From Fibrobacter sp. (GTDB lineage Bacteria; Fibrobacterota; Chitinivibrionia; Chitinivibrionales; Chitinispirillaceae): 38,592 nucleotides of DNA. The notes under the pieces are model-generated. The model was not told the DNA's origin. It worked only from the letters and a program-made list of their open reading frames with translations, and ran no database searches. The stretch is from contig JAAYEB010000006.1 in assembly GCA_012728995.1 (NCBI GenBank), positions 1 to 38,592 on the forward strand, written 5' to 3'. Every line of letters starts with the position of its first letter. Positions within the stretch are counted from its first letter, which is position 1. This document shows, piece after piece, positions 21,050 through 28,734 of the stretch. The translations under genes were made by a program, and so were the position numbers.

Positions 21050-21245
21050 GCTGAAGATCCAGCAATGGACATGAAATACAATTGACAAAGAATATATCTG
21101 AAATTCAGTTTTTTGAATGAAAAAGAACCGAATTTTATCTGTAATTAGGAGATTTTCGAGAAAAAAGGTGCAAAAATATTGACTTGATTGAGACGGTATC
21201 ATAAAATAAATAGTTATCTCTTAACCCCCCATCATGAGAGGTACT

Positions 21246-24200
21246 ATGGGAATGTTTATTGGAGAATATCAGGTTGTAGAAGAGCTGATATCGGATGGAA
21301 AAACCGGTATCTATTCAGCACACAGTTCTCTTTCCGGAGAATTTTATATTATAAGGGTTTGTGATTGCAGTAAAGATAAAAAGCGCACCCTCAACGAGTT
21401 TTCGATAAACAGAGATTTTAATATTGCATCCGGTCTTGATCATCCCAATATCGCCAGGCCTGTAGATAAGTTTATTTGTGAATATGGTCTGGCAATAGTT
21501 TACAAACATATCGAAGGTACAACACTGGAGCGGGCATTATATACCGGGAAGAGGTATTCTTTATCGGATTGCTTTAAAATAGTGTCCCAGATTCTGGATG
21601 CATTGCATTATATACACAGCAGAGGAATACTACATTGTAATATCAACCCGCAAACAGTTTTCATAGGTGATGATAATGGAGTGAAATTGTTTGATTTCCG
21701 GTATGCATTAACCGATGATGAAGCGTGCAAGATACCGGAAGGCAAAGTTGTTGGTAAAATACCTTATATTTCACCCGAGCAGACTGGTTTTACAGAAAAC
21801 AAGATTGATGCCAGATCGGATTTATTCTGCACAGGAGTTTTATTTTACAAACTTTTGTGCGGAAAAGTACCCTTTGGAGTTGAAGATGGACCGATGGATC
21901 AGTTTCTTACTTCAATGTTCAAAACAGACGTATCACCGATAAGGTCCATACACGTATATGTAAATGAGGTACTGCTTAAAGCTCTTCGCATAATGCCTTC
22001 AGAACGATATCAGACTGCATCAGGATTTAAATTTGACATTCAGAGTGTCACTGAAATATTAATTGACGGAAATAACAGTAGTTTCATTGCAGGGAAAAAG
22101 GATCTGTTAATCGCTGCGGGAGAATCGAAAGTCTTTATCGCCCGTGATGAAGAGATACAGACGCTTAAGAAAAGTTATGATAATTTCCTGAAAAAGGGTG
22201 TAGTTTCGGTAGTTATATATGGACCCTCCGGAATCGGGAAAACTGAAATCGTCAAGCAATTCAGAAAAGGTTTGAGAAGGGAAGAGGGAATACAGTTTAT
22301 TAATGTTAAATGTAATCAGTTTACTATTCATCAACCCTTTTCTGTCTATAACCAGATCATACTCTCTGTGATCAGTTCGATTGATACTGTATTTGACATA
22401 GAAAACAGAAACAGTATTATTAATTATCTAAACAGGAAAATGCAGGGTAATTCCGGGTTAATCTGCAAGATAATTCCTGAAATGTCGGAGTGGTTTCCCA
22501 AAATAAATAATATAGACAAGATTGAGCCTGACAAGGAGGCTGATCGTCTTACGTATGTATTATCGAATCTGCTTAAAACTTTTTGCGAAAAACTGAAACT
22601 GATTTTATTTGTAGATGACATACAATGGATTGACAAAGTGTCAAATGATATTTTGCTGAATTGCAGAAATATAAGCTGTCCAATGATGTTGATATCTACA
22701 TTGCGGACAGATGGTGAGTATTCAAGGAAAATGCTTTTTGGTAACCAGATCGCAAAAACCGCAGATAAAATTGTAGAAATTAAACCATTACACGAAACCG
22801 ACATAGAATGGTATCTATCATACAAATTTGGTGATATCAGCAATAAATATTATTTGCGTAAACTGATACTGCAGAAGTGTAATGGAAATCCTTTCATGTT
22901 ACTGGAACTTATCAAGTACCTTATAGACAGCTCTCTGCTATATGAAAATGAGAACGGATGGGAATTCAGGGTAAGGGAAGTCTGTAATCTGCCAGACCAT
23001 TTTGATTCCGTATCACTTATCATGCACAGGTTTTCAGGGTTTGATAAGGAACAGATGTCTTTTTTGCAAATATGTGCAATAATCGGCAAGGCAGACATGT
23101 CTCTGATCAACGAGCTTGGCGCCTTTGGAAACAAGCTTGTTCCAATGATTCGTAAAATGGAATATGCCGGGATTATACGTTACACCGGAAATGGTGAATG
23201 TGTATTTTTACACGACAAGATCCACGCGGCGGTGCTCAGGACAATAAATGAGAACAACCGTATAATGCTTTATGAGAAATTGGCAAATGTTTATGAATCG
23301 AGAGTGGAGCAGGACAAGGATTATCTGTTTAAAGCAGCAAACGCCTGGCTTAATACCGGAAATGTAAAAAAAGCCTTTCATTATTCCTATAATGCCGGTC
23401 AATATGCCAGAGAAAAGCTTGCATTTGACCATTCGGTACGGTTTTTCAGGAATGCGCTTTTGCTTGCGGGTCAGTTAAAAAAGACCGGGGGAAGTGAATT
23501 GACGGTAAGCGTTTACAAGATTCGGTTATCACTTGGAGATGCACTATTATTATCTGGTAAGCACGAACAGGCAATGCATGTTTTTAGTGACCTGCTTGAA
23601 AATGATGACGGGAGGGATAAAAAACTGACAATAGATCTGTTGTCAAAGCTTGGGATAATTTTTTATAAAATGGGAGAATTCAAACAGTCTATTGTATATC
23701 TCAAAAGGGCATTGGCCTATTTTGAGATAAGAATTCCGGAAAAAAGAATATTGATACTATTTAATCTGTTGCTGGAAGTATTAAGACAGGCATTACATTC
23801 AATAGGCATCAAAAGGAGAGTGCGAAAGCAGAAGAAAGGAGAAACTGTAATACTGAGGCTTTTAAACAAGCTGTCATTATCGCTTTATTTTACAGACATG
23901 TTTGGTTGTTTATATTACCATGTCAAAGCGCTGAATCTATTTGACAAGCTTGAATACAGTTGTGAATCCATAGAGGCTTATTTGACACACGGGATAGTCG
24001 TTAATCAGTTGTTCATGAAAAAGAGGGGATTGAAATATGTAAAAAAGGCAATTTCCCAGGCTAAGAAATTGAACCGCACTGATCTTCTTGCAACCGGGTA
24101 TTCATATCAGGGGATGGTTCTTTACTTTGGAGCCAGGTGGAAAGAAGCAGAAGAGAGCTTTAATACCAGCATAGAGTTATTTGAATCCATTGGTGATATG

Positions 24201-26357
24201 TCTTCAAAATCACTTTGTACGGAGCATCTTTGGAGAATCCAGTTGATGAGAGGTCAACTGTCTGAAGCAAAGAAATATATTCAGTACACGATTGTGAATT
24301 GCCGGAAAACTGAAGACAAACATTATCTTCATTCTTCAACATCTGCGAAAGTGATGATAAATACTATTCAGAAAAAGGGATCATCACCGCAGGATATTGA
24401 ACTGGTAAACAAGTCTTTTAAAAACAGGGATATTTTCCTGACATATACTCATACTGCCATGTCTTTATTTGAAAAAGAGATACTGGAAGGTAATTATGTT
24501 TTAGCAGAGGAGATCGCGAATGTACTGATACCGTTTATAAATAAAAATGGTTTGAATTATGAGTATAATGTAAAGGCATTCTCATTGATGTGCGAATTGA
24601 TTTTCCGCAAATATTCAGGTGCAGGATTTGGTGCTGAGAAAGGTTTACGATTCAGATATATGCGGAGCCTCATGGCTTTGATTTTGTCCAGTTTCTGTTA
24701 TCCTGCATACAGGGGTGCTGCATATCGCGCAATTGCCTGGTATCTGATATTGGCAAAAAGAGAGAAGCTTGTTTCAAAATTTTTTAAAAAATCAATTGGT
24801 ATCTATCATCGTCTGGATATCAATTATGAAAAAGCACGTACTGTCAATGATTATGGAAATTTCCTTGAAAAAAAGAATGCTCCAGGCTTGGCGAGAAATC
24901 AGTTCGATATTGCATATAAATTGTTTGAGAGTATTGGCGCATGTCTGGAAACTGACCGACTGGTAAACAGGGTCAGTAATGATGTACGCAGGGAGATTGT
25001 TTCAAGCAATGAAAAATCATCTGTGCTGCCGATGGAGAACAGTAATCATGTACGTTTTGACTCACTTTTAATGGTAAGTTCATCTATATCCGGAATCAGT
25101 GAAATGCCGGTTTTACTGAATCAGATCCTTACAGCCATGATTAAGGTTACAGGTGCACAATATGGTGGAATATTTCTTTGTGATAATAATAATGAGACAC
25201 GAAAAATGCTTTTACGGGATTATGCCGGTAATAATCTTGATAATACAACAGTATACATATCTTCCAAACTTCTGGAAAAGACCAGACAGTACAAACAGGT
25301 TATATGTGTAAGAGATGGTATGGAAGAGGAGTTTAAAGATGGTGGTATAGAGAAAAACCGGTCGGTTTTATGCGCCCCATTATTTCGTGAGGATAATTAC
25401 ATGGGTTGTGTTTATCTGGGCAACGACAAAATGAGTGGTTTGTTTTCTGAAAGTGCTATTAAATCTGCACAGATTCTTGCTGCACAGGCAAGTATTTTAA
25501 TGGAGAATGCATTTTTGGTGGAGAAATACAAACAGCTTAACCGGGATCTGGACAAAAAGGTTAAACAGCAGACACAGGATATTCTTGAAAAAAATCATCA
25601 ACTTGAAATTGCAAATCTCAAACTTGTAGAATCTGAGCGAATGAAAGGGATTCTTTCGGGAACATTGGTTCATGATATAAAGAATTATGCAGCTGGTATT
25701 GAGGGTAATCTTCAATATCTTGGAAGAAGGCTGGAAAATGACCCTAAAATAAAGAGAATTGTGGATATGGTATGTGAAACATGTTCTGATATCGTAAGTC
25801 TGGCGTCTAATCTTCTTGATGTTGCGAAGATGGATGATGGGAAACTGCTTATCAGAGCTGAAAATCTTCAGTTCGGATATATTGAGGGCATGATTTTAAA
25901 ATTTACTGGAAATTCATTATTTGAAGAAAAAAATATAACTCTTAAAATTAATTCACCTGTTGAGCCATTTGTCATAAAAGCTGATGTTTATCTTTTGGAG
26001 AGGGTTATTCAGAATATGATAAGTAATGCTGCCAAGTATATTCCAAAAAACGGAAGTTTTGAACTAAGCTTTGAGTCGCTCAATAATTACAATACAATCT
26101 GTTTTTTTAATTCTGGCAGGCCAATTCCAGATAATGAAAAGGATATTTTATTTGAAAAATATGCCCGTCTTGAAAATCGTCAGTCACAGTACTCTAAAGG
26201 CTTGGGACTGTTTTTTTGCAGGATGGTTATGAATGCCCACAATGGTAAAATATGGGTAGATTCAGATGAATTTGGCAACTGTTTTAAACTCGCATTTCCC
26301 CGCATTGAAGAGAAATATCCGCAGATTCAAACCCCCTTTGAAGTTTTGCAGGCTTGA
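21246..26357 (+). CDS. HstK-like hybrid kinase: pseudokinase, AAA ATPase, repeats, GAF, histidine kinase
   Basis: GAGAGG at 21236-21241 supports a start at 21246, or the next ATG at 21252; an earlier in-frame ATG (21234) overlaps that site. The product has about 1703 residues. Domains: kinase-like ~8-270; AAA ATPase ~296-640 (Walker A GPSGIGKT 326-333, Walker B LILFVDD); helical repeats ~700-1250; GAF ~1279-1431; coiled coil; histidine kinase with H-box LVHDIKN (His1476), an N-box (QNMISNAAKY) and GLGL. YISPEQTG in the kinase domain is a mark of cyanobacterial HstK-type proteins. The catalytic loop reads HCNINP, so the catalytic Asp is Asn132, and Arg37 stands where the ATP Lys is expected: probably a pseudokinase. 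No membrane segment or receiver domain is seen, and no response regulator is nearby. Confidence 0.9.
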   Translation: MGMFIGEYQVVEELISDGKTGIYSAHSSLSGEFYIIRVCDCSKDKKRTLNEFSINRDFNIASGLDHPNIARPVDKFICEYGLAIVYKHIEGTTLERALYTGKRYSLSDCFKIVSQILDALHYIHSRGILHCNINPQTVFIGDDNGVKLFDFRYALTDDEACKIPEGKVVGKIPYISPEQTGFTENKIDARSDLFCTGVLFYKLLCGKVPFGVEDGPMDQFLTSMFKTDVSPIRSIHVYVNEVLLKALRIMPSERYQTASGFKFDIQSVTEILIDGNNSSFIAGKKDLLIAAGESKVFIARDEEIQTLKKSYDNFLKKGVVSVVIYGPSGIGKTEIVKQFRKGLRREEGIQFINVKCNQFTIHQPFSVYNQIILSVISSIDTVFDIENRNSIINYLNRKMQGNSGLICKIIPEMSEWFPKINNIDKIEPDKEADRLTYVLSNLLKTFCEKLKLILFVDDIQWIDKVSNDILLNCRNISCPMMLISTLRTDGEYSRKMLFGNQIAKTADKIVEIKPLHETDIEWYLSYKFGDISNKYYLRKLILQKCNGNPFMLLELIKYLIDSSLLYENENGWEFRVREVCNLPDHFDSVSLIMHRFSGFDKEQMSFLQICAIIGKADMSLINELGAFGNKLVPMIRKMEYAGIIRYTGNGECVFLHDKIHAAVLRTINENNRIMLYEKLANVYESRVEQDKDYLFKAANAWLNTGNVKKAFHYSYNAGQYAREKLAFDHSVRFFRNALLLAGQLKKTGGSELTVSVYKIRLSLGDALLLSGKHEQAMHVFSDLLENDDGRDKKLTIDLLSKLGIIFYKMGEFKQSIVYLKRALAYFEIRIPEKRILILFNLLLEVLRQALHSIGIKRRVRKQKKGETVILRLLNKLSLSLYFTDMFGCLYYHVKALNLFDKLEYSCESIEAYLTHGIVVNQLFMKKRGLKYVKKAISQAKKLNRTDLLATGYSYQGMVLYFGARWKEAEESFNTSIELFESIGDMSSKSLCTEHLWRIQLMRGQLSEAKKYIQYTIVNCRKTEDKHYLHSSTSAKVMINTIQKKGSSPQDIELVNKSFKNRDIFLTYTHTAMSLFEKEILEGNYVLAEEIANVLIPFINKNGLNYEYNVKAFSLMCELIFRKYSGAGFGAEKGLRFRYMRSLMALILSSFCYPAYRGAAYRAIAWYLILAKREKLVSKFFKKSIGIYHRLDINYEKARTVNDYGNFLEKKNAPGLARNQFDIAYKLFESIGACLETDRLVNRVSNDVRREIVSSNEKSSVLPMENSNHVRFDSLLMVSSSISGISEMPVLLNQILTAMIKVTGAQYGGIFLCDNNNETRKMLLRDYAGNNLDNTTVYISSKLLEKTRQYKQVICVRDGMEEEFKDGGIEKNRSVLCAPLFREDNYMGCVYLGNDKMSGLFSESAIKSAQILAAQASILMENAFLVEKYKQLNRDLDKKVKQQTQDILEKNHQLEIANLKLVESERMKGILSGTLVHDIKNYAAGIEGNLQYLGRRLENDPKIKRIVDMVCETCSDIVSLASNLLDVAKMDDGKLLIRAENLQFGYIEGMILKFTGNSLFEEKNITLKINSPVEPFVIKADVYLLERVIQNMISNAAKYIPKNGSFELSFESLNNYNTICFFNSGRPIPDNEKDILFEKYARLENRQSQYSKGLGLFFCRMVMNAHNGKIWVDSDEFGNCFKLAFPRIEEKYPQIQTPFEVLQA

Positions 26358-26497: not shown

Positions 26498-27913
26498 ATG
26501 TATCGACGCGAAATAACTGAATTCGAAAAACAATATCTCGAGCAGTCTTCAGAAATTGCAATCATGAATAACTGCATTGATGCAGAAACATATTCCAGAT
26601 ACAACGTAAAACGTGGATTACGCAACAATGATGGAACTGGGGTACTTGTTGGTTTAACAAGAATTGGAGATGTTCATGGATACATCATGGATGAAAACGA
26701 GAAAGTTCCGGTTGAGGGGAGACTCAGATACAGGGGTATAGATATTGGAGATATTGTAGAGGGATTTCAGGCTGATAAGAGATTCGGGTTTAATGAAGTA
26801 GCTTATTTGCTTTTATTTGGGTATCTTCCAGACAAACTGCAGTTAGAAAATTTCAAGGACATGCTGGATTCTTGCAGGGATTTGACGGCTGGTTTTACAG
26901 AAAATATGATTCTCAAGGCACCCAGTTCCAACATAATGAATAAATTAGCAAGGGCTGTTCTTGCTTCTTATTCTTATGATGACAACCCGGATGATTTAAG
27001 TATAAAGAATGTTTTGCGTCAGTGTATAGAATTGATTGCACGTTTTCCAACGATGATCGCTTACGGATTTCAGGCAAAAAGCCATTACTATGATGGTAAA
27101 AGCTTGTTTATTCATAATCCGCAGTCAGGTTTGAGTACTGCACAGAATTTTCTCCATATGATCCGACCAGACAGCAGTTTTACTGATCTTGAAGCAGAAA
27201 CGCTTGATTTGGCTCTGGTTCTGCATGCTGAGCATGGTGGAGGAAATAATTCGGCTTTCGCTCTTCATGTTGTATCATCATCCGGTACAGATACCTATTC
27301 AGCAATTGCTGCTGCAGTGGGTGCACTTAAAGGACCCAAGCATGGGGGAGCCAATATCAAGGTTGCTTCAATGATGGAAGATATATGCAATAATGTTAAA
27401 GACTGGTCTGATGAGGATCAGATAGCTGCATATCTGACAAAAATTTTGAATAAAGAGGCATTTGATCATACCGGATTAATTTATGGCATGGGACATGCCG
27501 TGTATACACTTTCAGATCCTCGTGCGATTATTTTGCGCAACAAGGCAGAGGAACTGGCAAAAGAAAAATCCAGGACAGATGAGTTTGAGTTATACAGGAG
27601 AATTGAACGTATCGCACCGCAGGTATTTAATAAAGTAAAAGGGAATAAAAAAACAGTATCTGCAAATGTGGATTTTTATTCAGGGTTTGTATACGATATG
27701 CTGAACATTCCCAGAGATCTGTATACACCAATTTTTGCCCTTTCAAGGATAGCAGGATGGTCAGCCCACAGAATTGAAGAACTTGTAAGTGGAGGAAGAA
27801 TAATCAGGCCTGCTTATAAAAATGTTTCAAAAAGAAAACATTATATTTCTCTTGATCAGAGAGAGTGTATAAATGAACCTGTTGATGCTCTGGTTTTTGA
27901 TACATTTTTATAG
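26498..27913 (+). CDS. gltA: Citrate synthase
   Basis: The 471-residue protein condenses oxaloacetate and acetyl-CoA. Catalytic residues are present: His246 (HAEHGGGNNS), His282 (GPKHGGANIK) and Asp392 (NVDFYSG), matching His274, His320 and Asp375 of the pig enzyme. The N-terminal extension (about 50 residues, with YNVKRGLRNNDGTGVLVGLT) resembles citrate/methylcitrate synthases of clostridia and relatives rather than the NADH-regulated enterobacterial type. AAGGAG precedes the ATG. It stands 48 bp before the selenoprotein gene and may be cotranscribed with it. 2-methylcitrate synthase activity cannot be excluded. Confidence 0.95.
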   Translation: MYRREITEFEKQYLEQSSEIAIMNNCIDAETYSRYNVKRGLRNNDGTGVLVGLTRIGDVHGYIMDENEKVPVEGRLRYRGIDIGDIVEGFQADKRFGFNEVAYLLLFGYLPDKLQLENFKDMLDSCRDLTAGFTENMILKAPSSNIMNKLARAVLASYSYDDNPDDLSIKNVLRQCIELIARFPTMIAYGFQAKSHYYDGKSLFIHNPQSGLSTAQNFLHMIRPDSSFTDLEAETLDLALVLHAEHGGGNNSAFALHVVSSSGTDTYSAIAAAVGALKGPKHGGANIKVASMMEDICNNVKDWSDEDQIAAYLTKILNKEAFDHTGLIYGMGHAVYTLSDPRAIILRNKAEELAKEKSRTDEFELYRRIERIAPQVFNKVKGNKKTVSANVDFYSGFVYDMLNIPRDLYTPIFALSRIAGWSAHRIEELVSGGRIIRPAYKNVSKRKHYISLDQRECINEPVDALVFDTFL

Positions 27914-27961
27914 AAATACAGAACGGATCAATCATGGCGAAATCAATATTAGGAGGTTTGT

Positions 27962-28192
27962 ATGAGTGAAACAGCAACAATAAAAATCACATATTGTGGT
28001 ATGTGAAATTACTACCCTAAAGCCGTCAGTTTGGCGCAAGAGATAAAAGAAACATTTGGATATGAAGCCCAACTGGTTAAATCCAGCGGTGGAGTCTTTG
28101 AAATAGAAAAAAATGGTAAATTGATATTTTCGAAAAAAAAGACAGGAAAATTCCCGGAACCGGGAGAAATAATAAAGTTACTTTCCAAATAA
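27962..28192 (+). CDS. Selenoprotein W-like protein (SelW/Rdx family), Sec encoded by TGA
   Basis: The gene has a perfect AGGAGG before ATG 27962 and reads through an in-frame TGA (28004-28006) to a TAA at 28190-28192, giving 76 residues. The TGA is residue 15, in Y-C-G-M-U, the C-x-x-U redox motif of SelW. After it come SSGGVFEI, GKLIFSKK and FPEPGEIIKLL, which match the SelW/Rdx fold (human SelW has GFFEV and GKLIHSKKK in the same order). Both halves are in one frame and similarity continues across the TGA, so it is not a pseudogene. These are small cytosolic thioredoxin-fold redox proteins. It implies selenocysteine machinery elsewhere in the genome. It lies between citrate synthase and the IspF-like gene. 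Confidence 0.93.
28022..28035 (+). promoter_or_regulatory. Candidate bacterial SECIS hairpin
   Basis: GCC (28022-28024) can pair with GGC (28033-28035), with an extra G-U pair inside, leaving a loop that begins GU. The loop G lies 22 bases from the first base of the TGA, within the distance known for bacterial SECIS elements read by SelB. The stem is short, so the position supports the call more than the structure does. Confidence 0.35.
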
Positions 28193-28230: not shown

Positions 28231-28734
28231 ATGTATATTTCTTCGATAGGTCAGGATTCCCACAGGTTTGAATCACAGGATTCTTCAAAGCCTCTCATTC
28301 TTGGAGGAGTTATAATCCCACAGTGTGTGGGATTAAAGGGAAACAGTGATGCTGATGTTGTCTTGCATGCTATTACAAATGCTATATCCGGTTTAAGCGG
28401 AATAAATATTCTGGGTAAAGTAAGTGACGATATTTGTCTGAAACATGGAATTACCGACAGTCGTGTTTATTTGGCTGAAGCACTTAAAACAGTTTCAGAT
28501 TACAGGATATTACATGTATCTGTTACTGTCGAAGCTTTACGTCCACATCTTGCAGACTACATACCAGCTATTAGAGAATCAATCGCACAATTATTATCGC
28601 TTGAAACCGCACATGTCGGGTTGACAGCTACTACTGGTGAAAGCTTAACCGGTTTTGGAAGAGGTGAAGGAATCGGAGTTTTTGCAATCATTTCAGCGCA
28701 AAAAAATGTGAGTAATTGTAAAAGCATACTGTAA
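28231..28734 (+). CDS. ispF: Divergent IspF (MECDP synthase-like)
   Basis: The 167-residue protein aligns along its length with 2-C-methyl-D-erythritol 2,4-cyclodiphosphate synthase of the MEP isoprenoid pathway. The zinc ligands are kept (Asp9, His11, His46), as are the GGVxIP, SDADVxLHA and GRGEGI segments. Several residues normally constant are changed: E. coli His34 is Asn38, Asp46 is Asn50 and Asp56 aligns with Ile60, and the N-V-D segment before the late strand reads L-H-V. It may be a divergent true IspF or a paralogue with another role. It lies 38 bp after the selenoprotein gene with a weak ribosome binding site. Confidence 0.8.
   Translation: MYISSIGQDSHRFESQDSSKPLILGGVIIPQCVGLKGNSDADVVLHAITNAISGLSGINILGKVSDDICLKHGITDSRVYLAEALKTVSDYRILHVSVTVEALRPHLADYIPAIRESIAQLLSLETAHVGLTATTGESLTGFGRGEGIGVFAIISAQKNVSNCKSIL

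Follow-up and report, generated by a model that had tools for sequence, protein, structure and literature searches.

The window, 38,592 nucleotides of Fibrobacter sp. DNA, very probably contains a gene for a SelW-like selenoprotein of the Rdx family in which an in-frame UGA codon is decoded as selenocysteine (Sec); from the sequence and its homologues we put the probability of this whole explanation at about 96%. The initial annotation recognised the UGA-interrupted gene correctly from the raw sequence, and its description of the Shine-Dalgarno sequence, the ATG, the TGA as codon 15 within Y-C-G-M-(TGA) and the remaining 61 sense codons to a TAA (28190–28192) holds on rereading, coordinates included. 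The residues around codon 15 are ITYCGM-U-NYY, giving the motif C12-G-M-U15. At this locus a plain ORF caller returns only a TTG-started fragment of 53 residues (28031–28192). The expectation that the gene would be annotated as nothing or as a pseudogene is therefore borne out for plain ORF callers, which miss it, but it does not extend to NCBI, which has two models for the family, one of them named '(seleno)protein'. The features of the locus are compiled in Table 1.

Table 1. Features of the selW-like locus and its two flanking genes, in window coordinates.
Feature	Position	Strand	Evidence or detail
Citrate synthase gene, upstream neighbour	26498..27913	+	NF010635, 734 bits
Shine-Dalgarno sequence AGGAGG, 5 bases ahead of the ATG (27962)	27951..27956	+	Direct reading of the sequence
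selW-like gene of 76 codons and a TAA stop, with a single in-frame UGA	27962..28192	+	Translation with TGA as Sec; Pfam and NCBIfam models; purifying selection
UGA codon 15, predicted Sec of the C-G-M-U motif	28004..28006	+	TGA at the same codon in homologues
bSECIS-type hairpin	28023..28037	+	28024–28027 pair with 28033–28036; loop AGUUU 28028–28032; conserved G 28029
ispF gene, downstream neighbour	28231..28734	+	TIGR00151, 135.9 bits (cut-off 116.45)

The proposed relationship to SelW/Rdx proteins with a CxxU motif was confirmed with family models. Read through the UGA, the protein matches Pfam Rdx (PF10262) over residues 6–75 with the UGA spanned (E = 1e-21, 77.3 bits against a cut-off of 22.6), and it exceeds the cut-offs of both NCBIfam NF041051 (97.4 bits against 88) and TIGR02174 (66.7 bits against 34.2). 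The read-through protein thus belongs to the Rdx / SelW-SelT-SelH family by a full-length match that runs across the UGA, and since it matches these models the occurrence of an in-frame UGA with a frame downstream of it is not a matter of chance. Over the 50 codons 3' of the UGA, comparison with the nearest homologue gave codon-position differences of 14/7/23, with a dN of 0.19 and dS saturated. The frame 3' of the UGA is under protein-level purifying selection, as expected for a translated frame.

The UGA itself is conserved. A search of 168 genomes of the phylum, with a homologue threshold of E ≤ 1e-6, yielded ten homologues from five families, and each of the ten has exactly one internal stop, which is TGA and falls at the same codon. 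Among named genomes of other phyla the codon is TGA in 43 of the 44 resolved homologues and TGC (Cys) in the one that remains, from Myxococcales. Every resolved homologue therefore carries UGA or a Cys codon at this position of the CxxU motif, and the alignment contains none of the other sense codons that the initial annotation had named as evidence against its reading. The Myxococcales gene (L049:4025) retains a hairpin-like sequence, GCUGGUCUGGC, despite its TGC codon, and the Cys codon looks like a recent Sec-to-Cys change. Within the phylum, selA was found in 15 of the 168 genomes, and its distribution follows that of SelW: it is present in nine of the ten genomes with SelW versus six of the 158 others (Fisher p = 2e-10, uncorrected for relatedness), and the one SelW genome in which it was not found is 77% complete. 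These counts assign the Sec-decoding trait, of which SelW is a main user, to a minority of the phylum (15 of the 168 genomes searched).

A bSECIS-type hairpin downstream of the UGA, which the initial annotation had proposed to look for, is present by comparative evidence in the form of covariation and a loop G. With the T of the TGA numbered as position 1, positions 20–24 pair with positions 30–34 and enclose a five-base loop. Single-sequence folding is uninformative alone and covariation was used instead. Across 50 distinct elements 95.6% of the cells are paired and 42 cells carry changes in both partners. The observed values for paired cells, double-sided cells, pair types and covariation score were reached in none of the 500 shuffles. 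Shifting the pairing partner by 1 to 3 bases brought pairing down to 24–56%, and a G occupies the second loop position (G26) in 51 of the 52 distinct elements compared. A stem-loop that closely follows the UGA and has an early loop guanosine, as in bSECIS elements, is thus found family-wide, with the element in the window being a weak one. There the outer pair (28023/28037) is C-C and unformed and one further pair of the five is U-G, the conserved register has a folding energy of −2.9 kcal/mol versus −5.1 for a shifted fold, and the isolated 49 bases after the UGA are no more stable than shuffled sequences (z −0.30), while the stems in most relatives from the phylum are stronger (−6.8 to −13.1). 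Rfam at gathering thresholds gave no match within the window, and this does not speak against a bSECIS element because short hairpins are not expected to be detected in this way.

In the mechanism that we propose, a ribosome at UGA codon 15 would meet SelB carrying Sec-tRNA(Sec) and brought in by the hairpin starting about 17–20 bases past the UGA, and by analogy with the family selenocysteine would be inserted in place of termination. The product would be a small protein, predicted to be thioredoxin-fold-like, in which Cys12 and Sec15 of the CxxU motif could serve as a redox pair and, from the chemistry expected of the family, could form a selenenylsulfide. Judging by this motif, its most likely role is that of a small thiol/selenol redox protein that takes part in the metabolism of peroxide or in metabolism linked to glutathione/thioredoxin. 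A variant that we consider unlikely is partial decoding, in which Sec is inserted at the UGA by only some of the ribosomes, with the 14-codon truncation as the usual product or with Cys inserted when selenium is scarce. Decoding of UGA as Sec is of limited efficiency, and the hairpin in the window is weak compared with those of its homologues, both of which would fit such a variant; however, the energy of an isolated strand says little about SelB binding, and the conservation of the gene points to full-length protein being produced frequently enough for selection to act on it.

Decoding of the UGA as Sec implies, as the initial annotation pointed out, that the organism has SelA, SelB, SelC and SelD, the absence of which would have counted against it, and all four were found. 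The assembly is a draft of 4.97 Mb that is 97.65% complete, and owing to this draft state (486 contigs, 3.26% contamination) the sel genes are located on contigs other than that of the window. The genes for tRNA-Sec (selC), selA and selB adjoin in this order on one strand of contig C92. Here selA and selB were identified by matches (E = 2e-155 and 4e-105, respectively) and selC by a match of 61.8 bits, which ARAGORN also reports as tRNA-SeC with anticodon tca. Contig C452 carries selD (E = 1e-113), which has no internal stop and hence no UGA. The genome therefore has the full set of genes by which the bacterial Sec-decoding trait is recognised.

Two further explanations of the in-frame TGA were rejected. 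The locus could be a pseudogene, that is, an ancestral Cys-SelW gene with a nonsense mutation at its active-site codon, and to a plain ORF caller the frame does appear broken; however, the same stop, always TGA and at the same codon, recurs in the ten phylum homologues (five families) and in 43 of the 44 named ones, the frame past it is intact and under purifying selection, and the Sec machinery is complete, which makes this explanation highly improbable. The codon would also be open under a general reassignment of TGA in this genome, for example to Trp or Gly, but we give this next to no credence given a tRNA-Sec with anticodon tca, SelA, SelB and TIGR00474-type genes that are intact under code 11, a window filled by long code-11 frames, and family alignments in which the alternative residue is Cys rather than Trp or Gly.

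SelW is accompanied by a second UGA-containing gene in the same genome, encoding an AhpC/TSA peroxiredoxin (G000:C75:10656-11051, L079). Its UGA occupies the peroxidatic position (FTFV-U-ATE) and is followed by a strong hairpin of 7 pairs with the loop GGUC, located 13 to 31 bases past the UGA. These two proteins make up a minimum list of the selenoproteins of the genome. No molybdopterin oxidoreductase (PF00384), and with it no usual-type formate dehydrogenase, was found in the genome with a search that was positive in 11 of 14 controls. A review describes FdhA as the bacterial selenoprotein with the widest distribution, and often as the sole one, although the Sec trait may also be maintained by alternative selenoproteins (PMC13188914), and a Sec user that lacks FdhA is thus less usual without being unheard of. 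Neither FlpD nor CMD/AhpD was found, and GrdB gave no match in a search whose control also matched nowhere, which is no evidence of absence. None of the eight thioredoxin-family matches has an internal stop, and among the TGA-read-through frames of the window and of 18 kb around the sel genes none besides SelW resembled a known redox protein by eye. The Sec trait in this genome seems to serve small redox proteins.

In the window the citrate synthase, selW-like and ispF genes lie on the same strand with spacings of 48 and 38 bases. The initial annotation correctly named citrate synthase and an IspF-like gene as the neighbours, but their presence is not simply unexplained as it had stated, since two further genomes from the same family keep the arrangement. 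In one of these (L028) SelW is flanked by citrate synthase and ispF, and in the other (L022) ispF is downstream of SelW and citrate synthase is upstream with other genes between. At the loci from other families neither gene was found within about 1.5 kb of SelW. The citrate synthase–SelW–ispF order is an arrangement conserved within the family. Elsewhere in the window, positions 21234–26357 encode a very large signalling protein of 1707 residues with Ser/Thr kinase, AAA ATPase, TPR, GAF and histidine-kinase ATPase domains; its matches to PADLOC defence models fall mainly over the kinase domain and are not evidence of a defence role.

Homologues with the UGA were also found in viral contigs. 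In IMG/VR, 12 contigs were identified that encode SelW, corresponding to eight distinct proteins (L092–L103; also L089–L091 and L076), with IMGVR_UViG_3300020442_002498 and IMGVR_UViG_3300032360_000023 as examples. TGA is present at the CxxU position in all 12, and in most of them it is followed by a clean hairpin, such as CUCUC-AGUUU-GAGAG, of the same bSECIS type as in the family of the window gene. Several of these contigs have T4-type replication or baseplate genes. Within a few kb of SelW there are a gp32-type single-strand binding protein, UvsX, a DnaB-type helicase and an exonuclease in L099 and L103, SSB and UvsX in L100, baseplate wedge subunits in L095, thymidylate synthase and PhoH in L090, and an endolysin in L076. 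TGA terminates other frames in the viral contigs and is thus not generally reassigned there, and no tRNA-Sec was found in the viral stretches examined, so that the machinery of the host would be used. In a protein tree of 62 sequences, built from few columns and relied on only for its starred groups, the viral SelW proteins form one group (97/88) whose nearest neighbour is a Calditrichota sequence. No SelW was matched in 50,697 deposited phage records (INPHARED), and the matches that exist on plasmids are all below 60% identity. The contigs are of uncultured origin and their viral label is that of IMG/VR. A marine survey found no or very few viral sequences in the other families that it examined (PMC9402790), and the literature that we searched contained no report of phage selenoproteins. 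The location of UGA-SelW beside T4-type phage genes makes a phage-encoded selenoprotein possible. Should selenoproteins truly be encoded by tailed phages, they are overlooked in viral gene catalogues that end frames at UGA, and infecting phages would draw on the selenium supply of the host. Taking the bacterial and viral results together, we lean slightly towards a joint view. In it, this lineage would retain its Sec machinery to make small thiol-redox proteins, namely SelW and a peroxiredoxin, while having neither a formate dehydrogenase nor Sec in its SelD. UGA-SelW, together with a hairpin that can travel with it, would moreover be passed around among T4-like marine phages as an auxiliary gene that relies on the Sec machinery of the hosts.

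SelW-like proteins with the CxxU motif are an accepted family of bacterial selenoproteins (PMC1088965, PMC1794560, PMC9312934, PMC13188914). They were the most abundant selenoprotein family in Sargasso Sea data in 2005, with 48 genes (PMC1088965), and again in GOS data in 2008, with 427 genes (PMC2398784). Being among the commonest selenoproteins in marine metagenomes, they make the window gene another member of a known family, and there is nothing unusual about the gene itself, given a protein family that was recognised two decades ago. It shares with the bacterial SelW-like selenoproteins (PF10262, TIGR02174, NF041051) the N-terminal CxxU, the UGA codon, the SSGGVFE and FSKK blocks, a length of about 75 residues and the bSECIS-type hairpin, and there is no substantive difference, the GMU-NYY residues being typical among its relatives. 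The SECIS element of mammalian selenoprotein W is of the eukaryotic type and is located in the 3' UTR; that protein (2npb) belongs to the same family by sequence but is more distant from the window protein (E = 7e-4) than are the solved bacterial Rdx proteins 2fa8 (Atu0228), 2p0g and 2ojl. These match over the whole length with E = 1e-11 to 2e-8, Atu0228 being the best match among solved structures (E = 1e-11), and all three carry Cys at the position where the window protein is predicted to have Sec.
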